A DNA stretch of 64,000 nt, from positions 36,872 through 100,871 of the forward strand of contig NZ_WQLV01000017.1 of the NCBI RefSeq assembly GCF_009753675.1, given 5' to 3'. The notes under the pieces were generated by a model. It was given only the letters and a program-made list of their open reading frames with translations. It did no database searches and was not told the DNA's origin. This document shows positions 25,751 to 62,032 of the stretch, one piece after another. The position numbers and the translations under genes were made by a program. The stretch is from Parasedimentitalea huanghaiensis (GTDB lineage: Bacteria; Pseudomonadota; Alphaproteobacteria; Rhodobacterales; Rhodobacteraceae). Numbering within the stretch: the first letter of the stretch is position 1; each line of letters opens with the position of its first letter.

Positions 25751-25827
25751 GGACCGATAGCTCAGCTGGATAGAGTACCTGACTACGAATCAGGGGGTCG
25801 GGGGTTCGAATCCTCCTCGGTCCGCCA
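25751..25827 (+). tRNA. tRNA-Arg(ACG), copy 1
   Basis: A 77-nt cloverleaf with encoded CCA. The acceptor GGACCGA pairs with TCGGTCC, the D arm is GCTC...GAGT, the anticodon stem CCTGA/TCAGG holds loop CTACGAA (anticodon ACG, read as ICG after deamination), and the T arm contains GGTTCGAATCC. The discriminator is G. It is identical over all 77 bases to the copy at 29020. It decodes CGU/CGC/CGA. Confidence 0.97.
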
Positions 25828-29019: not shown

Positions 29020-29096
29020 GGACCGATAGCTCAGCTGGATAGAGTACCTGACTACGAATCAGGGGGTCGGGGGTTCGAATCCTCCTCGGTCCGCCA
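29020..29096 (+). tRNA. tRNA-Arg(ACG), copy 2
   Basis: Base-for-base identical to the tRNA at 25751-25827, anticodon ACG, CCA encoded. Identity extends 3 bp upstream (AGT) and 6 bp downstream (CTTCCC), giving an 86-bp direct repeat. A T-rich stretch (CCCTTTTT) follows and may terminate transcription. Confidence 0.97.
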
Positions 29097-38518: not shown

Positions 38519-39583
38519 TTAGATGTCCAGAGTCACGTCGCCCTTGGGCACCGCACAGCACAGGAGGGCAAACCCCGTACCTGGGCGTTCCATTGGTTCT
38601 TCGGGGTATTCGACTTCACCTGCTGTTACTCTTGTTTTGCAGGTGTCGCAGGTGCCAGCCCGGCAGCTATAGTCTGCCATCACGCCATGTTCTTCGGCTA
38701 GCTCCAGCAAGTTGGGAATATCCGGATCCCAAGCCACCTGCATCCCGGATTGAGCAAATGTGATCTGTGGCAGGTTGGCGGCCTGCGGTGTGGGGGCTGA
38801 TTTAGATCGTGTTGGTTTTAGCAGCGTGGCAGGGCCGAAGAACTCATAATAGATCAGGTCTTCGTCGACACCCAGCGACAAAAGCAGCGCGTACATTGCT
38901 TCCATAAAAGCGCCGGGACCGCAGAGATAATACTCAGCGGGGGTCTTTGGCATCAACTGCTGCAACAGGGCGCGGGTGACAAAACCACTGCTGTCATAAC
39001 CGCCATCCTGCGGCCGTGGGTTGGCGTAGCAGATATGGCTGGCAAGCTTGTCAAAACTGGATTGTAAATCACGTACTTCCTGACCGAGCGCATGGACGCC
39101 ACCATGTTCGCAAGCATGAATAAACACCGTTTCGCGGCTGCCCTGTGCTGCAAGTGCCTGCAACATGGCCAGCAATGGGGTCTGACCGACGCCACCGCTG
39201 AGCAAAACCACCGGCCGATCCGAGCTCTGGTTCAAGGCAAACTTGCCAGCGGGACCATAAGCGGTGACGGTGTCACCTTCGCTGAGCTTGCTATGAAAAT
39301 AGCTGGATGCAATTCCGGGTGGCACATCTTTGTCTTGGGGGGCGGTTTCATGTTTGATCGTGACCCGCAATCCATCGCTGCTGCGCTGCGAGATGCTGTA
39401 TTCCCGTTTCACCGGCACACCCTGTTCATCGGGTACGGTAAAGACCAGATAGTCCCCAGGGACAAAATCGGGGCAGGCGCCAGTTGTTGGGTTTAGATAG
39501 AACGACATTATGTTGTCGGACTCTGTCTTTTTGCGGGTGATGGTATAGTCCCGGGTCTGCGGGGTCGCGCGGTTGGGCAGCAT
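38519..39583 (-). CDS. FMN/FAD-NAD(P)H-2Fe-2S oxidoreductase, P450 partner
   Basis: 354 residues in the order flavin domain, NAD(P) domain, plant-type 2Fe-2S ferredoxin. The flavin motif is REYSISQRS, the pyridine-nucleotide strand LLSGGVGQTPLLAML and YLCGPGAFMEAM follow, and the C-terminal CRAGTCDTCKTRV...LLCC supplies the four cluster cysteines. A strong AGGAGG lies upstream of ATG 39583. The gene is 25 bp behind the P450 gene, so it should pass electrons from NAD(P)H to it. The same domain order occurs fused to P450 in CYP116B enzymes. Confidence 0.9.
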   Translation of the reverse strand: MLPNRATPQTRDYTITRKKTESDNIMSFYLNPTTGACPDFVPGDYLVFTVPDEQGVPVKREYSISQRSSDGLRVTIKHETAPQDKDVPPGIASSYFHSKLSEGDTVTAYGPAGKFALNQSSDRPVVLLSGGVGQTPLLAMLQALAAQGSRETVFIHACEHGGVHALGQEVRDLQSSFDKLASHICYANPRPQDGGYDSSGFVTRALLQQLMPKTPAEYYLCGPGAFMEAMYALLLSLGVDEDLIYYEFFGPATLLKPTRSKSAPTPQAANLPQITFAQSGMQVAWDPDIPNLLELAEEHGVMADYSCRAGTCDTCKTRVTAGEVEYPEEPMERPGTGFALLCCAVPKGDVTLDI

Positions 39584-39608
39584 CTGCGCCTCCTGTAATT
39601 GGGTGGAA

Positions 39609-40850
39609 CTAGCCGAGGCGGACGACTAGTTTTTCGATGCCATTCACAAAGTTGGAGTGGACGTATTCGGGAGGCTCGGCCAAGGAGATTTTCATGTCGC
39701 GTTTCAGAATTTCCTCAAGCAGGATACGTAATTCAATGCGCGCCAAACCTGCGCCTAGACAGGTGTGGACGCCGCCACCGCCATAGCCGATGTGGGGCAT
39801 TTTGGGGCGGGTAACATCATAGTCGAGCGGTGCGGCGAACCGGGCTTCGTCGAAATTTCCGCTGGCGTACCACATTACAACTTTTTCGCCCTTTTTAACC
39901 GGGGTTCCCGACAGCACGGTGTCGCAGGTTGCGGTGCGGCGAAAGTAGAGGATAGGCGATGCCACCCGGACGATCTCTTCCACGGCCCCATCGATCAGAT
40001 CCGGGTTGTCTTTGATACTGGCAAAGATTTCGGGATTGTTCACCATCTGGATCACCAGATTGGACATTGCTGACCGGGTGGTTTCATTGCCAGCGAAAAT
40101 CAGCAGGCGAAAGAAATTCGTGAATTCTGCCTCGGTCAGTTTTTCACCATCGACTTCGGCGTTGATCAGTTTGGTGACAAGATCATCCTGCGGTTCGGCC
40201 CTGCGTTTGTTGCCAAGATCGCGGGCGTAATTGTCCAGCGCAAAGGCTGCGGGGCTTTCAAATGGCAGGAACCGAAGCGGAGTGGTGTTGCCGTAGGCAT
40301 TGGGATCAAGCGGTTTGTTCGCGGTGCCAGCAACCAGATGATCCGTCAATTCAATCATGTAGTTACGGTCTTCTTCCGGCACACCAAGCATGTCACAGAT
40401 GATGCTGATCGGAATTGGCTTGGCAATTTTTTCGACCCAGTCCCCGCCGCCTTCAGCCACCAGATCATCCAGCAATGCCGAAGCGCGTTGGCGAACAATG
40501 GGTTCAAAAAGCCGGAGGTTTTTGGGGATGAAGCCAGGGTTGACCAAGCGCCGTAACCGGCTGTGGTTGGGCGGGTCCATGTCAATCATCGAGGCGCGTG
40601 CCTCCAGGCAGTCGTCGGGCACTGTATAGATCTGGATGTGGCCAGTGGCGGAACTAAAGGTCTCGGGGTGGCGAGAGACTTCAACGATGTCTTCAAACCG
40701 GGTCACCGCCCAAAATCCATCTTCACCTTGTAACGGGTTCCAGCTCAGCCCGGGTTGTTTGCGGATTTCTGCAAACACCTGGTGGGGAATGCCTGCATCG
40801 TAAAGAGCCGGATCCGATAGGTCGGTTTGGGTGAGGCTGCGATCTGACAA
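39609..40850 (-). CDS. Cytochrome P450 monooxygenase
   Basis: About 413 residues from a TTG at 40850 behind AAGGAAA; an ATG at 40901 would add 17 residues but lies inside the operator region, so the start is uncertain. P450 motifs are the I-helix AGNETTRS, K-helix EEIVR and heme-Cys loop GYGGGGVHTCLGAGLAR, with Tyr where most P450s have Phe. It resembles soluble bacterial class CYP enzymes of the linalool/steroid-acid groups; substrate unknown. First gene of the P450-reductase-amidotransferase operon, with a GntR-type operator immediately upstream. Confidence 0.9.
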   Translation of the reverse strand: MSDRSLTQTDLSDPALYDAGIPHQVFAEIRKQPGLSWNPLQGEDGFWAVTRFEDIVEVSRHPETFSSATGHIQIYTVPDDCLEARASMIDMDPPNHSRLRRLVNPGFIPKNLRLFEPIVRQRASALLDDLVAEGGGDWVEKIAKPIPISIICDMLGVPEEDRNYMIELTDHLVAGTANKPLDPNAYGNTTPLRFLPFESPAAFALDNYARDLGNKRRAEPQDDLVTKLINAEVDGEKLTEAEFTNFFRLLIFAGNETTRSAMSNLVIQMVNNPEIFASIKDNPDLIDGAVEEIVRVASPILYFRRTATCDTVLSGTPVKKGEKVVMWYASGNFDEARFAAPLDYDVTRPKMPHIGYGGGGVHTCLGAGLARIELRILLEEILKRDMKISLAEPPEYVHSNFVNGIEKLVVRLG

Positions 40851-40886
40851 TGGACAATTTCCTTTCCGGCACGAGTGTTGATTCGT

Positions 40887-40917
40887 GAATACTGGATTCA
40901 TTGTATTCTGTATACAA
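40887..40917. promoter_or_regulatory. GntR-type operator pair between P450 and hydrolase genes
   Basis: Two adjacent dyads: GAATACTGGATTC (40887-40899, one mismatch from a perfect 6-1-6 palindrome) and TTGTAT-TCTGT-ATACAA (40901-40917, perfect 6-5-6). They match the palindromes before the GntR gene (43605) and the GS-like gene (43702). They lie between the divergent P450 and hydrolase operons. Confidence 0.75.
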
Positions 40918-41000
40918 AAATCTTGTGAACTTGATTTTGCTATGTCAGTACTGGCGGTGACAAAAGGTGACTTTTGGATGTGAAAAAGGAGCGTGGTGTG

Positions 41001-41819
41001 ATGCAAGGCGATATAATTGTTGAAGAAAAGGGGCCGATCTGCTGGCAAGAGGCCGGAGTCGGTGCGCCGATCCTCTTTCTGCATGCTATGGCAGGATCAC
41101 GTACGGCTTGGGTTCCCCAGTTTGAGTATTTTACGCCGCACTATCGTTGTATCGCCTGGGATATGCCCGGTTTTGGATTGTCCGCAGCCTTGCCTGATGG
41201 TGCGCAGATGGCTGAGGTCACAAGCAGCCTGAAAGGCTTTGTCACTCAGACGTTGGGGCTAACCTCGGCGCATTTTGTTGGCCTGTCAGTTGGCGGAATG
41301 ATCTTACAGCACTTCGCAGCAGAAGAGCCTGAACTGGTCCGATCTCTGACGATTATGGACAGCTCGCCAAAGTTTGGACTGGGTGGCGATATGAGCCCTG
41401 AGGACTTTATGCAGCCAATCTTGTCAGACTTAGCGGATGGGACTTCGGTGCGGGCGTTTTCGGATACCATGATCAAAGCGATTACCGGGCCGAGCTGCAG
41501 CCCTCAGGTTATTGATGCAGCGATCGGCGCAATGGCGCGGGCGCAGTTGTCTGGGCTGGTGCTGACGACACAGTTGATAGGCAACCATGATGCGATGAGC
41601 GCTTTGGGCCATATCAGAGCGCCGACATTGGTAATGGTGGGCGCTGATGATGCGGATACCCCTGTCAGCTACGCCGAAGAGATTGCTAAGACTATCAAAG
41701 GCGCTCAGCTAGAGATCATTCCTGATGCCGGTCATCTTTCGAATCTAGAAAACCCCGAGGCGGTGAATGCGGTGCTCGCGAATTTCCTTGCTGCGCAAGC
41801 GGGGGGAATGTGCCGATGA
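41001..41819 (+). CDS. Alpha/beta-hydrolase
   Basis: 272 residues from ATG 41001 (GGAG 9 bp upstream). The catalytic triad is visible: Ser in GLSVGGM (nucleophile elbow), Asp in VGADDADTPV, His in DAGHLSNLENP. The oxyanion region HAMAGSRTAW is near the N-terminus. It resembles 3-oxoadipate enol-lactonase/ester hydrolase-type enzymes, but the substrate is not shown. It shares a 150-bp divergent promoter region with the P450 operon and overlaps the zinc alcohol dehydrogenase start by ATGA. Confidence 0.88.
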   Translation: MQGDIIVEEKGPICWQEAGVGAPILFLHAMAGSRTAWVPQFEYFTPHYRCIAWDMPGFGLSAALPDGAQMAEVTSSLKGFVTQTLGLTSAHFVGLSVGGMILQHFAAEEPELVRSLTIMDSSPKFGLGGDMSPEDFMQPILSDLADGTSVRAFSDTMIKAITGPSCSPQVIDAAIGAMARAQLSGLVLTTQLIGNHDAMSALGHIRAPTLVMVGADDADTPVSYAEEIAKTIKGAQLEIIPDAGHLSNLENPEAVNAVLANFLAAQAGGMCR

Positions 41820-55874: not shown

Positions 55875-56092
55875 ACCCAATTTGTGACATGGCAAAATTA
55901 TTTCATGTTTAGCTTGATGAGCGGAGGACGCGTGAGCTGAGAACGCAGGCCAATCGCTGACGATGTTTTTGCAGATCGCCGCGTTGTCAGATGTTTGAGG
56001 AGAGGGTAACAACTCAGACAGCTGTGTTTCCCGTGTTGACAGTCCGTCGTTCGCACCGCAACGCTGGCGCCGCACTAAAAGGGAGCGCGGAT

Positions 56093-56845
56093 ATGGGCGT
56101 GCAAGAGTCATCAAACTTTCCCGTGATACGGACGGTTGGACTTCAGGGGTTGTTGGTAACATTCGCTGACAAGCTGAGTGAGCCATCGAACCGCGCGGCG
56201 CTGGCATTTCAAGGCGCGTTGGAACAGAGGTTGATGACGGGCGTGATTGAGACCTCTACCTCGCTTGCCTCGGTTTTTGTGCGGTTTGATCCGTCTGAAT
56301 TGTCGCACGACGTTCTGCGAGAGCAGTTACAGGGGTTGCTGGCGGATCGTGATTGGTATGCGGCACCGCTGCCCGAGGGGCGCAGGTTCTGGCGGGTGCC
56401 TACTGTGTATGGCACCGATTTGGCCCCACAATTGGCTGAAGCAGCTGACGCCGCTGGCATGACCGAGGCGCAGGCAATTGACAGTCTCGGCTCAGCCAGA
56501 GTGCGGGTTCTCACCATAGGATTTGCTGCGTCGCAACCTTACCTTGGCACGTTGGGTGAAGAGTGGGATCTGCCACGTCAAACTGAACTGACGCCAATGG
56601 TACCACAGGGCGCATTGGTGCAGGCGATCCGCCAGTTTGTGTTGTTCACAGCACCGGCCCCCACCGGGTGGCGTCATGTTGGGCAGACCGGCATGCGCCT
56701 GTTTCGGCCGGAAATGGAACACCCCTTTGCGCTGCGGGCTGGGGACGAATTAATATTTGAGCCGGTGGCGCGGGCTGACTTTCTGCGGTTGCGTGAGGGT
56801 GATCCGTTGAATGGCGGCGCCTCTGTGTCGGAGATCGCATCATGA
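56093..56845 (+). CDS. pxpB: 5-oxoprolinase subunit PxpB (KipI/allophanate-hydrolase subunit 1-like)
   Basis: 250 residues. It starts at ATG 56093 (MGVQESS) behind GGGAG; the open frame upstream to 55991 has no similarity. The carboxyltransferase-domain subunit 1 fold shows GFAASQPYLGTL, the PRQTELTPMVPQGALVQAIRQF ligand loop and a C-terminal MRLFRPEMEHPF strand. With PxpC and PxpA it forms the ATP-dependent enzyme that opens 5-oxoproline to glutamate in the cytosol. Its stop overlaps the pxpC start (ATGA). Confidence 0.92.
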   Translation: MGVQESSNFPVIRTVGLQGLLVTFADKLSEPSNRAALAFQGALEQRLMTGVIETSTSLASVFVRFDPSELSHDVLREQLQGLLADRDWYAAPLPEGRRFWRVPTVYGTDLAPQLAEAADAAGMTEAQAIDSLGSARVRVLTIGFAASQPYLGTLGEEWDLPRQTELTPMVPQGALVQAIRQFVLFTAPAPTGWRHVGQTGMRLFRPEMEHPFALRAGDELIFEPVARADFLRLREGDPLNGGASVSEIAS

Positions 56846-57873
56846 GCGGGTTGAAAGTCTTAAGTGCAGGTCCCTTGATGTCCGTGCAGGACATGGGACG
56901 CCCGGGCCTGTTGGAACGCGGTATTTCGCAGGGTGGGGCGGCGGATGTGCTGGCGCTTGCAGAAGGTGCGGGGTTGCTAAGCCAGGGGGCAGGGCTGGCT
57001 GCGCTGGAAATGGGTGGAATTGGCGGCACATTTGAAGCCGTCGGTACGCTCCGCATTGCCCTGACCGGAGCACCAATGACAGCCACACTGGATGGTGTGG
57101 CGCTCACCTGGAATGCCTCACATCTGGTGGAGGCGGGGCAGAAGCTGGTGATCGGCGCTGCGCGTCGTGGAGTGTATGGCTATCTCCATTTGGGAGGCGG
57201 CATCGATACCGACCGTTTTCTGGGGTCACGTGCTGCGCATCTGACCGGGGGCATTGGGCAGGCGGTGACAGAAGGCGATCTGCTGCCAGCGGGACAGGAT
57301 GCCCAACGTGAGACAGGTCTGGGACTTGAAGTTGAAGACCGGTTTTCGGGCGGTGCGCTGCGAATTGTCAAAAGCTTTCAGTCGTCGCTGTTTGCAGATG
57401 ATGTGTTGGCGCGGTTTGGGGATACTCAATTTAATCGGGGTGTCCGTGCCAATCGCATGGGTGTTGAAATGGTCTCGGATGGAGAGGGGTTTTCGGCCGC
57501 GGGACAGTTGAACATCTTGTCTGAGGTGATTGTGCCCGGTGATGTCCAGATGACCGGAGACGGAAAACCCTTTGTGCTACTGCGGGAGTGTCAGACAACT
57601 GGTGGCTATCCCCGTATTGGCACAGTGCTGCCATGTGATCTGGCGCGGGTGGCGCAGTCTGGAAACGGCGCAGCCTTGCAGTTTGAATGGGTGAGTTTGG
57701 AGGACGGACTGGCCATTCAGGCCAAGCACGATGCCTTTGTCAAATCGCTGCCGGGGCAATGTCAGCCGCTGATCCGTGATCCTTTGGATATGGCGGATTT
57801 GTTATCTTATCAATTGGTCGGTGGTGCTGTTTCAGCCAATGCTGACCCCTTCGAGAGTGGAGAGAACACATGA
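56842..57873 (+). CDS. pxpC: 5-oxoprolinase subunit PxpC (KipA/biotin-dependent carboxyltransferase-like)
   Basis: 343 residues. The PxpC/carboxyltransferase subunit 2 fold is shown by SAGPLMSVQDMGRPGLLERGISQGGAAD at the N-terminus, RANRMGVEMVSDGEGF, and the GGYPRIGTVLPCDLARVAQ core. Works with PxpB, forming the kinase half for 5-oxoproline. ATGA overlaps join it to both pxpB and pxpA, so the three subunits are translationally coupled. The conserved order B-C-A matches the usual E. coli cluster order. Confidence 0.93.
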   Translation: MSGLKVLSAGPLMSVQDMGRPGLLERGISQGGAADVLALAEGAGLLSQGAGLAALEMGGIGGTFEAVGTLRIALTGAPMTATLDGVALTWNASHLVEAGQKLVIGAARRGVYGYLHLGGGIDTDRFLGSRAAHLTGGIGQAVTEGDLLPAGQDAQRETGLGLEVEDRFSGGALRIVKSFQSSLFADDVLARFGDTQFNRGVRANRMGVEMVSDGEGFSAAGQLNILSEVIVPGDVQMTGDGKPFVLLRECQTTGGYPRIGTVLPCDLARVAQSGNGAALQFEWVSLEDGLAIQAKHDAFVKSLPGQCQPLIRDPLDMADLLSYQLVGGAVSANADPFESGENT

Positions 57874-58643
57874 CCAAATCGGTCGATCTGAATGCTGATA
57901 TGGGCGAGAGCTTTGGTCCCTGGAACATGGGGGATGATGCGGCGCTGTTGGACATCGTGTCGTCGGCCAATGTCGCCTGTGGTTTTCACGCCGGCGATCC
58001 TGATGTGATGGCTGCGACCATGACCCGCGCAATGGAGTGCAACGTAGGTATTGGTTCGCATCCGGGTTTTGCTGATCTGCAGGGGTTTGGGCGGCGTAAG
58101 ATGCAGCTGTCCAAAGATAACCTGAAAAACACCGTACGCTATCAGCTGGGCGCGTCTCGTGGGATGGCAGCGGCGCTGGGCGGGCAAGTACGTCATCTGA
58201 AACTGCATGGGGCGCTGGCCAATATGTCCAGCGTTGATGCGGACATGGCGCGCGCTTGCTATGAAGCCGCTTTGGAAGTCGACCCTGATATTATTATCAT
58301 GGTTCTGGCCGCTACCGAGATGGAAAAAGTGGTGCGCGAACTGGGATGCAACTGGGCGGGTGAGATTTTTGCAGATCGGGCTTACAATGATGATGCAACG
58401 TTGGTGGACAGATCCAAACCCGGCGCGGTGATCCATGATCCGGCAGTCGCAGGCCCTCGTATTCTGCAGATGGTGCAAGAGGGGGCCATTATCACAGAAA
58501 GCGGTAAGCGTATTGCAACTAACATTGATACGATCTGCTTACACGGAGATACGCCAACCGCTGTGGCGCTGGCGGGGGCCGTGCGCAACAGTTTGACCGG
58601 GGGTGGCATAGAAATTGCACAGTTTTCCGGGCGCCGGGGCTAA
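57870..58643 (+). CDS. pxpA: 5-oxoprolinase subunit PxpA (LamB/YcsF family)
   Basis: 257 residues, the hydrolase subunit that finishes 5-oxoproline opening. LamB/YcsF landmarks are DLNADMGESFGPW at the N-terminus, ANVACGFHAGDPDVM, GIGSHPGFADLQGFGRR with the metal His, LKLHGALANM and a C-terminal CLHGDTPTAVALAGAVRNSL. Last gene of pxpBCA; a perfect hairpin follows at 58652-58669. Confidence 0.95.
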   Translation: MTKSVDLNADMGESFGPWNMGDDAALLDIVSSANVACGFHAGDPDVMAATMTRAMECNVGIGSHPGFADLQGFGRRKMQLSKDNLKNTVRYQLGASRGMAAALGGQVRHLKLHGALANMSSVDADMARACYEAALEVDPDIIIMVLAATEMEKVVRELGCNWAGEIFADRAYNDDATLVDRSKPGAVIHDPAVAGPRILQMVQEGAIITESGKRIATNIDTICLHGDTPTAVALAGAVRNSLTGGGIEIAQFSGRRG

Positions 58644-58669: not shown

Positions 58670-58736
58670 TTTCCCACATATTGGTAGGTTCTCGCATATT
58701 GTTTCGATTGAAAACAGCATGTTGGATATGATTTAG

Positions 58737-58787
58737 ACAATATTGTATATTGGATGCTATCAAAGTGATTGTCTTGTGTAGTACAAG
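58737..58787. promoter_or_regulatory. Dyads in the dehalogenase promoter region
   Basis: ACAATATTGT (58737-58746, perfect 10-bp palindrome) and CTTGT-GTAGT-ACAAG (58773-58787). They lie in the 179-bp gap between pxpA and the dehalogenase gene; ATATTG(G/T) also recurs at about 58676-58702. No regulator gene is adjacent, so the cognate protein would be unlinked. Confidence 0.45.
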
Positions 58788-58822: not shown

Positions 58823-61800
58823 ATGACTTTTCAGTTCTTTTCGGACAAAAATCGCCCAGTCCATTTAGGGCCTTTTCCGCTAGAACGACTTGCACGCGGA
58901 GTGATGCCGGAGCTGGAGGATGTGCCAGGGTTTCAGCCGTTGAATTTTCGCCGTCCAAATTTGCCTGCGTCGATTGTCAATGCGATGGGCGAATATCAGG
59001 CGATGATGGATGCAATCCGCGATGGCATGGTCAATAAGGCCCGTGCCGAATGTCCCAATGATCCGCAGGAGCGCGCTGAGCATATCAAAGGTTTTGGCTA
59101 TTTCTCCGATGCTTCTATGGTTGGCATTGGCCCAATGCCTGCCTCGGCCCGGTTGGATCAGCCTTATCGCAATCCCGATATTGATCGTTTGGCCGAAGAT
59201 CTGAAAACTCGCCAGACCAAAACGCTGGCGGCAGGTATCGATGTCATTATGGCCGATCTGAAGGAGGCCATGAGCGCACCGCCCACCACCATTGGCGACC
59301 ATTCGCGTTCCATTGTGTTCCTGTACGACATGCCCCGCGATCCAGGAGCGGATGAACAAGGGTGTGAGTGGCTGGTGGATGCACAACAGCACCGGGCTTG
59401 TTTGCGTGCCAGCGAAACTGCGGTGGTGTTGGCCAACTATATCCGGTTGTTGGGGTGGGATGCCAAGGCACATACCGGCACCTCGTCTGATGTGGATTTA
59501 AATCAGTTGGTGGTGGCAGCTGGACTGGCTACAGTTGAAGAGGGACAATTGGTGAACCCCTATCTAGGGACACGTTTTGGCGTGGCGGTGGTTACGACAG
59601 ATTTTGATCTGACAATGGATCAACCTCTGCTGCCAATGGATCAGCAACCTATGATGAAGGTCAAGGGGCCGCGCTGGTGGGTTGGACTTGGCTCGCAACG
59701 CTCGGCGCTAAATTTGGACCCCTTTAAAAAGCGAGACTATAAGGATGGAGCACATCCGTTTGAGACGTTGAAACGGGTTGAAGACCCAACAACCTATATC
59801 GACGAAGCCCGTGTGGCGCGGGTGCCGAAACGCGCCGACATGTTTGCCCGCGCGCAGTTCGGAGATATGGGCAAGGGCAATCAAAAGGCCGCCACAGGTG
59901 GCTTCTATGTGCGCAAAGCGGCGCCCTCGATGGCGCAGCGGCGGATGCTGGGGGCCTTTGTTCTTCTCCAAGATGGTGCCGGGGGCGGTGGGTCGCGACC
60001 AACAGATGCCTCACGCAATGCGGCGAATATAAAGGCGACCAGCTATTGGTTGGGTGTCGATGCCGTTGGGATCAGCCGTTGCCCGGACTGGACGTGGTAC
60101 AGCCATGATGCCACCGGCGAAGAAATCGTGCCTGAGCATGACCAGGCGATCAGCATGATAATTGATCAAGGGTTTGAAACAACCGATGCGACGTCCGGGG
60201 ATGACTGGATCGCCGTTGCGCAATCGATGCGCGCCTATTTGCGGTTTTCACTGTTGGGTGGGGTGATCGCGCGTCAAATTCGCAATCTTGGATTTAAAGC
60301 CAAGGCGCATACGGTGATGGACGGCGAGGTGTTGCAGCCTCCGTTGCTGCTGCTCGCGGGATTGGGCGAGGTGAGCCGAATTGGTGAAGTGATCCTGAAC
60401 CCATTTCTGGGGCCTCGATTGAAATCTGGTGTGGTGACCACTGACATGCCTCTGGCGCATGATTTGCCGATCGATTTTGGCCTGCAACGGTTCTGCGAAA
60501 GCTGCAATAAATGCGCGCGTGAATGCCCGTCTGGGGCGATCACGGCCGGACCCAAACGGATGTTCAATGGCTATGAGATCTGGAAAAGCGACAGCCAGAA
60601 GTGCACCACCTACCGAATTACCACTCCTGGTGGAGCGATGTGCGGTCGCTGCATGAAAACTTGCCCCTGGAACCTTGAGGGGCTGTTTTCTGAAAAACCT
60701 TTCCGCTGGGCCGCTATGAATTTGCCAAAAACAGCTCCGGCTTTGGCCAAGTTGGACGATATAGTCGGCAACGGTGAGATGAACGCTGTCAAAAAGTGGT
60801 GGTGGGATCTGGAAATGGAAGAGGACGGCGGTTATCGCCCGACCCGCAATCCAGTGAACGCACGCGCGCTGCAAAAGGATCTGAAGTTAAAGTTTGAAGA
60901 CCAGACTTTGGCTGTCTACCCGGCCAATCTGGCGCCGCACCCCTGGCCTTATCCTTTCCCAATGGACCGTGAGGCCGGCATCGAGGCCTATCAGGCGATG
61001 GTCACAGCAGAAGAGTACAAAGCACGCCGGACTGCGGGTGAAACCGGGGAATGGGATCACATTTATAGCAGTGACAGTGACAGCCCGGTTCTGAGGGTCG
61101 AGGTTTCTAAGGTCGAAGAGATGAGCCCGGATGTCACCAAGTATGAATTCAGTAGCCTGGACGGATCGGAGCTTCCGGAATGGACTGCAGGTGCACATCT
61201 GGACATTGTCGTCGCGCCCGAATTCCTGCGTCAGTACTCAATGTCGGGTGACCCGGCTGACCGCAGCAAATACCAGATTGGTGTTCTGCGAGAAGATCAG
61301 GGCCGGGGTGGGTCGGCGCTTCTGCACCGGATCTTTGCTCAGGGACGAAAGATTTTCATCTCCAAGCCGATCAACCATTTTCCGGTTGTGGAGGGGAGCA
61401 AGAGCTTTTTGATGGGGGGCGGCATTGGTGTTACCCCGATGATAGCGATGGCGCATCAGTTGTATGCGCAGGGCAGGGCGTTTGAGCTGCATTATTCAGT
61501 CTCAAGCCGCGCCGGTGCTGGCTATCTGGAAGACCTAGCGGCGATGCCCTGGGCGCAAAACGTCAAAGTGCATGTTTCGGACGAAGGAACCCGCGCTGAT
61601 CTGGATGCGGTGCTGGCCGGATACCGTGAAGGCTGGCATGTCTACACCTGTGGTCCAGATCGGTACATGGATGGGGTCATGCAGGCTGCTGAACGGCAGG
61701 GGTTTGTCGAAGAGGCACGGCATCTGGAGTATTTTTCAGTGCCAGATCTACCAGAGTATGAGAATTATGATTTCACCTTGAAACTGGCCAAGTCGGGGCG

Positions 61801-62032
61801 CGAATTTGTTGTGCCTGCGGACAAAACCGCAACCGATGTGTTGGCAGAGAATGGTGTACAGGTGGATGTGAAATGCGCCGACGGCATCTGTGGGGTCTGT
61901 AAATGTGGTTTGATTTCGGGTGAGGTCGAACATCGCGATTTTGTTCTGTCCAAGGCACAACGTGAGGTCGCGGTGGTTCTGTGTCAATCACGAGCAGCCC
62001 AAAAGGACGGTGTAATGGTTGTTGACCTGTAA
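58823..62032 (+). CDS. Self-sufficient (catabolic, cytoplasmic) reductive dehalogenase
   Basis: A 1069-residue single-polypeptide dehalogenase. The cobalamin-binding part (about 1-545) shows two related halves (LGWDAKAHTG... and LGFKAKAHTV...). Two 4Fe-4S motifs follow: C558/C561/C564/C568 and C594/C607/C610/C614. The C-terminal reductase (about 755-1069) has flavin motif RQYS at 803-806, GGGIGVTP at 865-872 and a 2Fe-2S site C1018/C1023/C1026/C1054. Tyr472, Lys534 and Arg598 are 62 and 64 residues apart, as are NpRdhA Tyr426, Lys488 and Arg552. No Tat signal or RdhB anchor is present. Predicted substrate is a halogenated (brominated) phenol. ATG 58823 gives the family N-terminus. Confidence 0.95.
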   Translation: MTFQFFSDKNRPVHLGPFPLERLARGVMPELEDVPGFQPLNFRRPNLPASIVNAMGEYQAMMDAIRDGMVNKARAECPNDPQERAEHIKGFGYFSDASMVGIGPMPASARLDQPYRNPDIDRLAEDLKTRQTKTLAAGIDVIMADLKEAMSAPPTTIGDHSRSIVFLYDMPRDPGADEQGCEWLVDAQQHRACLRASETAVVLANYIRLLGWDAKAHTGTSSDVDLNQLVVAAGLATVEEGQLVNPYLGTRFGVAVVTTDFDLTMDQPLLPMDQQPMMKVKGPRWWVGLGSQRSALNLDPFKKRDYKDGAHPFETLKRVEDPTTYIDEARVARVPKRADMFARAQFGDMGKGNQKAATGGFYVRKAAPSMAQRRMLGAFVLLQDGAGGGGSRPTDASRNAANIKATSYWLGVDAVGISRCPDWTWYSHDATGEEIVPEHDQAISMIIDQGFETTDATSGDDWIAVAQSMRAYLRFSLLGGVIARQIRNLGFKAKAHTVMDGEVLQPPLLLLAGLGEVSRIGEVILNPFLGPRLKSGVVTTDMPLAHDLPIDFGLQRFCESCNKCARECPSGAITAGPKRMFNGYEIWKSDSQKCTTYRITTPGGAMCGRCMKTCPWNLEGLFSEKPFRWAAMNLPKTAPALAKLDDIVGNGEMNAVKKWWWDLEMEEDGGYRPTRNPVNARALQKDLKLKFEDQTLAVYPANLAPHPWPYPFPMDREAGIEAYQAMVTAEEYKARRTAGETGEWDHIYSSDSDSPVLRVEVSKVEEMSPDVTKYEFSSLDGSELPEWTAGAHLDIVVAPEFLRQYSMSGDPADRSKYQIGVLREDQGRGGSALLHRIFAQGRKIFISKPINHFPVVEGSKSFLMGGGIGVTPMIAMAHQLYAQGRAFELHYSVSSRAGAGYLEDLAAMPWAQNVKVHVSDEGTRADLDAVLAGYREGWHVYTCGPDRYMDGVMQAAERQGFVEEARHLEYFSVPDLPEYENYDFTLKLAKSGREFVVPADKTATDVLAENGVQVDVKCADGICGVCKCGLISGEVEHRDFVLSKAQREVAVVLCQSRAAQKDGVMVVDL

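Follow-up and report, generated by a model that had tools for sequence, protein, structure and literature searches.

JtRdhA of the marine bacterium Jhaorihella thermophila is a Tat-less fusion of a reductive dehalogenase (RdhA) to a phthalate dioxygenase reductase (PDOR). The purified enzyme contained cobalamin, FMN and Fe-S clusters, and with NADPH it removes bromine or iodine from ortho-halogenated phenols, also under air; the chlorinated compounds tested only inhibit it (PMC10463259). BhbA of Comamonas sp. 7D-2 is likewise a fused catabolic RdhA-PDOR, and lies in a plasmid-borne herbicide (bromoxynil) gene cluster that already runs through 4-hydroxybenzoate, the product of BhbA (PMC10463259, PMC13101508). 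Ros_A3X954 of Roseobacter sp. MED193 is a Tat-less catabolic enzyme from a Roseobacter that converts 2,6-dibromophenol to 2-bromophenol and loses its activity on exposure to oxygen (PMC13101508). The best solved relative of the protein described below is NpRdhA of Nitratireductor pacificus (4ras, 6zxu, 6zxx, 6zy0, 6zy1), which has neither a fused reductase nor the insertion listed below.

The window, by which we mean the whole 64,000-nucleotide stretch of DNA analysed here from Parasedimentitalea huanghaiensis, a bacterium of the Roseobacter group, encodes a member of this already described and widespread enzyme family. By description, its protein shares with JtRdhA the RdhA-PDOR fusion, the lack of a Tat signal, the Tyr/Lys/Arg triad, an insert relative to NpRdhA and a marine host, but JtRdhA has been assayed (PMC10463259), whereas we found no assay of the window protein. 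The name Jhaorihella appears neither among the best 120 matches of each of two protein searches (each with more than 2600 matches) nor among the 80 loci kept. The preliminary description of the gene was right in kind but overstated, since this architecture has already been assayed in JtRdhA (PMC10463259) and the gene is not rare: it occurs in all eight genomes of the genus that were examined and, at E<=1e-60, 161 of 394 sampled genomes of the family have a match. In nine of those 161 the best E does not reach 1e-100, and what they carry may be fragments or other dehalogenases. The nearest named record among the kept loci is Zongyanglinia marina DSW4-44 (99%), from a genus now placed under Parasedimentitalea. 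One genus member, an assembly 85% complete, has the gene in two pieces that cover residues 1-638 and 660-1069 (G006:C27:3047-6258), through either disruption of the gene or an error of assembly.

Domain make-up and cellular location

The reading frame of 1069 codons is far beyond chance and encodes the single large protein that had been described. Its parts are as follows.

58823..62032, + strand: rdhA-PDOR fusion gene, one ORF from ATG to stop, 1069 aa
58823..61042, + strand: NpRdhA-like dehalogenase part, residues 1-740
59138..59296, + strand: insertion of ~42 residues relative to NpRdhA, residues 106-158 (phmmer gap, query 106-158 against chain 101-111)
60494..60664, + strand: eight cysteines of two predicted 4Fe-4S clusters, residues 558-614 (Pfam Fer4_7/Fer4_16; conserved in 240 of 240 listed proteins)
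61085..62029, + strand: phthalate dioxygenase reductase-like module, residues 755-1069

The proposed order of a dehalogenase, two 4Fe-4S clusters and a flavin/2Fe-2S reductase holds up. The TIGR02486 'reductive dehalogenase' model matches at 197.7 bits (cut-off 160.35), and the Pfam domain list for the protein contains Fe-S and reductase domains, including Fer4_7/Fer4_16, and no corrinoid domain. Residues 754-1067 match phthalate dioxygenase reductase 2pia (phmmer, E 2.7e-57), and within this module R803QYS806 and G865GGIG869 can be read as flavin and nucleotide motifs, with the 2Fe-2S cysteines at 1018, 1023, 1026 and 1054. Together, the eight cysteines at 558-614 and the four at 1018-1054 would fit two 4Fe-4S clusters and one 2Fe-2S cluster, and by homology the protein probably binds cobalamin and the other cofactors. 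The first structure model had a pLDDT of 67.4 and was weak near residues 563-619; a more diverse alignment raised this to 84.7. The predicted structure matches the NpRdhA fold across residues 1-740, and its C-terminal module matches, by phmmer and in the model, both 2pia and the CYP116B self-sufficient P450s 6kbh and 6laa. In those proteins the reductase module feeds a dioxygenase or a P450, not a corrinoid domain. Elsewhere in the window (38519-41084) a cytochrome P450 gene adjoins a flavin/2Fe-2S reductase-like gene, which may be viewed as the two-gene equivalent of the fusion's own electron supply. The insertion at residues 106-158 is possibly the insert described for JtRdhA-type fusions (PMC10463259). 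Recent import of the gene was considered and rejected: its GC content (0.553) is close to that of the window (0.551) and so gives no sign of it.

Neither Tat export nor an RdhB membrane anchor had been expected, and neither was found. The protein contains no RRxFxK motif, its highest 19-residue hydropathy mean is 1.42, and the genes directly adjoining it, which match pxpA upstream and an (R)-mandelonitrile-lyase (cupin-like) model downstream, include no rdhB. Together, these features point to a cytoplasmic protein, and the Tat signal and adjacent rdhB of the respiratory RdhA/RdhB type are both missing here. Epoxyqueuosine reductases and reductive dehalogenases form one class of corrinoid enzymes (PMC10463259), and the QueG model TIGR00276 does match the fusion protein weakly, so that one might think of a corrinoid reductase of another kind, epoxyqueuosine-reductase-like for example, that performs no dehalogenation. 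That match reaches only 24.1 bits against a 200-bit cut-off, whereas TIGR02486 is above its own cut-off, and the protein retains the catalytic triad of a dehalogenase with a solved crystal structure; we regard such a function as extremely improbable.

Active site and conservation

NpRdhA (4ras) aligns with the window protein at E 2.5e-153 (phmmer), with 43.3% identity over 503 aligned residues, and the two have the Fe-S cysteines in common. The preliminary description had singled out three residues as equivalents of the NpRdhA triad Tyr426/Lys488/Arg552 and had proposed this alignment as the check; in it, all three land on active-site residues of 4ras.

60236..60238, + strand: Tyr472, equivalent to NpRdhA Tyr426, the proposed proton donor (phmmer alignment to 4ras; role from PMC7565698)
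60422..60424, + strand: Lys534, equivalent to NpRdhA Lys488 (phmmer alignment to 4ras)
60614..60616, + strand: Arg598, equivalent to NpRdhA Arg552 (phmmer alignment to 4ras)

The separations from Tyr472 to Lys534 to Arg598 are 62 and 64 residues, as claimed. The triad is invariant in all 78 sequences taken from genomes (77 loci and the window; L042, L053 and L086 were left out because ORF clustering gave no rdh there) and in all 240 listed proteins, which are the two sets of 120 best matches and include the window protein. The pocket residues Phe341, Ser468 and Met469, which match NpRdhA Phe291, Ser422 and Met423, are invariant in the 240 as well, as are the eight 4Fe-4S cysteines; 239 of them have all four 2Fe-2S cysteines, and the remaining row is gapped.

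The pocket is nonetheless not identical to that of NpRdhA, since Met340, Thr358, Tyr362, Val465 and Val498 replace Phe290, Lys307, Pro311, Ala419 and Asn452. Val occupies position 465 in 239 of the 240 listed proteins, and position 498 likewise in 239. At position 340, the window's group (best 120) has 118 Met and 2 Leu, and the other group (best 120) has Phe throughout. At position 358, the window's group is divided between 63 Thr and 52 Lys, and the other has 118 Lys and 2 Arg; among the 78 genome sequences, Lys occurs 38 times and Thr 29 times. NpRdhA Lys307 contacts the carboxylate, though in a non-productive pose (PMC7565698, also the source for the roles of the other NpRdhA residues). 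We rejected Thr358 as proof of a different substrate, because five of the six relatives with a directly adjoining pobA likewise have Thr here.

Gene neighbours and the pobA linkage

55991..58643, + strand: pxpB-pxpC-pxpA (5-oxoprolinase subunits), upstream neighbours
58698..58759, + strand: upstream stretch with conserved blocks ATTGTNT and ATTGNATNTTGG (alignment of 8 sequences, window included)

The neighbourhood of the window gene itself was rejected as a guide to function. Linkage to pxpC and pxpA was seen in 14 places and to pxpB in 12 (window included), all of them in loci 81-99% identical in rdh; because the linkage is limited to such near relatives, the pxp genes are probably unrelated housekeeping next door. 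The ATTGTNT and ATTGNATNTTGG blocks are kept in all eight aligned 5' intergenic regions, where mean column identity is 52%, and are a possible operator or promoter. In MED193 (L014:9129-9917) and eight further loci, the gene immediately upstream of rdh, on the other strand, belongs to one and the same cluster, whose MED193 member carries a LuxR-type HTH; this gene was not seen beside rdh in the window, L007, L008, L009 or L020. Another single cluster supplies the opposite-strand gene downstream of rdh in L058, L061, L066, L067 and L085, and its L058 member matches vitamin-B12-dependent ribonucleotide reductase. The window also holds two tRNA-Arg(ACG) genes (25751-25827 and 29020-29096), ~3.3 kb apart on the same strand.

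Some relatives carry a gene of ring catabolism next to rdh. By our own ORF picking we collected 130 directly adjacent genes from 77 loci and the window, leaving out one of 131 neighbour proteins for a coordinate error and taking only neighbours of up to 700 aa that lie within 4 kb. Seven of these match the 4-hydroxybenzoate hydroxylase model at E<=1e-10, and an adjacent pobA exceeds the 538.7-bit cut-off in six loci (L035, L047, L050, L055, L071 and L080). Five of the six have pobA downstream on the rdh strand, with its start 9-49 bp beyond the rdh stop codon; the exception is L035, where pobA is upstream, shares one base with the rdh start, and has a gene for an HpaA-related regulator (103.8 bits, below cut-off) divergent from it. 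L069 and L081 have pobA 5.6 and 6.7 kb downstream of rdh. This gives pobA in 8 of 80 loci (L042, L053 and L086 included), against ~0.3 expected in 1.23 Mb of flanks if one copy per 3.9 Mb is assumed; the other 72 have no match at E<=1e-15 within the fetched flanks, which are often short. The six adjacent cases are not independent, since L047, L050 and L080, whose pobA is 75-76% identical to that of L071, look like one arrangement inherited together with L071. The arrangements in L055 and L035 differ from these four and from each other. L055 (333-7237, a Nitratireductor MAG) has the order arylsulfatase, coniferyl-alcohol-dehydrogenase-like SDR, fused rdh, pobA, the first two being family matches below their cut-offs, and this order reads like a possible route that starts with a sulfated bromobenzyl alcohol and ends in protocatechuate.

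In the window the fusion gene adjoins not pobA but the 5-oxoprolinase genes and the cupin-like gene; on other contigs, the genome does encode pobA (680.6 bits), pcaH (358.3 bits) and cobN. Given these genes and the pobA beside rdh in relatives, the substrates that we favour are halogenated 4-hydroxybenzoates and precursors of these, a reading with which the product of BhbA is consistent, although the lack of pobA linkage in the window and Thr358, without the carboxylate contact of NpRdhA Lys307, speak against it. The marine bromophenols named in the preliminary description were thus a reasonable but loose suggestion. In the literature searched, which covered few subscription papers, we found no earlier statement of an rdh-pobA link in marine relatives, nothing on rdh with arylsulfatase and bromophenol, and nothing on self-sufficient reductive dehalogenases in Rhodobacteraceae. 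The 'reductive dehalogenase' mentioned there in a passage of one paper on rdh with 4-hydroxybenzoate 3-monooxygenase is a GST-type enzyme.

One neighbour suggests other natural substrates, namely halogenated products of tyrosine breakdown (3-bromo- or iodo-4-hydroxyphenylpyruvate or -phenylacetate), dehalogenated before the homogentisate/homoprotocatechuate route. A gene for 4-hydroxyphenylpyruvate dioxygenase (L119:3697-4797) immediately precedes that of a second-group fused dehalogenase, ~53% identical, and with 3-bromo-4-hydroxyphenylacetate JtRdhA reaches 99% of its highest rate (PMC10463259). When used as a query against 119 loci, however, this dioxygenase was found only in L119 itself (nine of the 119 are stretches from the genome of the window, and one is just 100 bases long), and we think it improbable that such compounds are the natural substrates.

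Proposed reaction and a second dehalogenase

The reading we consider probable is that this Tat-less fusion of an NpRdhA-type dehalogenase and a PDOR module is a cytoplasmic enzyme that uses NAD(P)H to remove ortho bromine or iodine from 4-hydroxybenzoate-like phenols. We infer its cofactor loading, reaction, substrate and physiological role, the Br/I-removal chemistry by analogy with JtRdhA. NAD(P)H would reduce the flavin of the reductase module, and electrons would pass singly through the 2Fe-2S and the two 4Fe-4S clusters to a base-off corrinoid, whose cobalt would directly engage the halogen. With the phenolate oxygen held by Ser468, Lys534 and Arg598, Tyr472, tuned by Lys534, would donate the proton, so that hydrogen replaces the ortho Br or I. 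The bare ring would then enter the pobA/protocatechuate route and serve the cell as a carbon source rather than being respired.

This genome also has a gene for a second reductive dehalogenase, a short protein of 392 aa (G000 C35:272101-273276; locus L002:1372-2550, - strand), which also passes TIGR02486 (168.2 bits). It was found in seven of the eight genus genomes, the exception being the one that is 85% complete. Its identity to a protein of MED193 is 80%. Counted from the start chosen here, that protein has 395 aa, with CDICTKCADACP beginning at residue 283 and CAICMRVCP at residue 337; these motifs and positions are those reported for Ros_A3X954 (PMC13101508). Unlike the fusion, it has no reductase module. 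MED193 also has a relative of the fusion (L014, 83%), and the available part of PMC13101508 mentions no second dehalogenase in this strain beyond a general remark on bhbA homologs.

The presence of this counterpart of a MED193 protein with the motifs of Ros_A3X954, which debrominates 2,6-dibromophenol (PMC13101508), would fit a different role for the fusion: the detoxification of simple bromo- or iodophenols, of the 2,6-dibromophenol or 2,4,6-tribromophenol type, rather than growth on brominated 4-hydroxybenzoates. The exchange of the carboxylate-contacting lysine for Thr358 and the absence of a ring-catabolism gene directly adjoining the fusion gene in the window would also suit detoxification, but the same Thr in most directly pobA-linked relatives and the slowness of JtRdhA on 2,6-dibromophenol (6.8% of maximum; PMC10463259) count against it, and we hold it to be unlikely.

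With the fusion architecture already known, the gene by itself is no new discovery; it is of value as a pointer to physiology, and the pobA linkage and the second dehalogenase add to its interest. The rdh-pobA pairs in relatives make the natural substrate of marine fused dehalogenases testable, and the occurrence of the short enzyme alongside the fusion suggests that marine bacteria divide the work of debromination between enzymes. Very tentatively, and with more doubt than confidence, marine Roseobacters may run a two-enzyme aerobic route for algal organobromine, in which a short oxygen-sensitive bromophenol debrominase of the Ros_A3X954 type works alongside an NAD(P)H-driven fusion that takes brominated 4-hydroxybenzyl and 4-hydroxybenzoyl compounds, some of them from algal sulfate esters, into the pobA/protocatechuate pathway. 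If so, the fusion would be a major, mostly unassigned step in the oceanic cycling of bromine and iodine.
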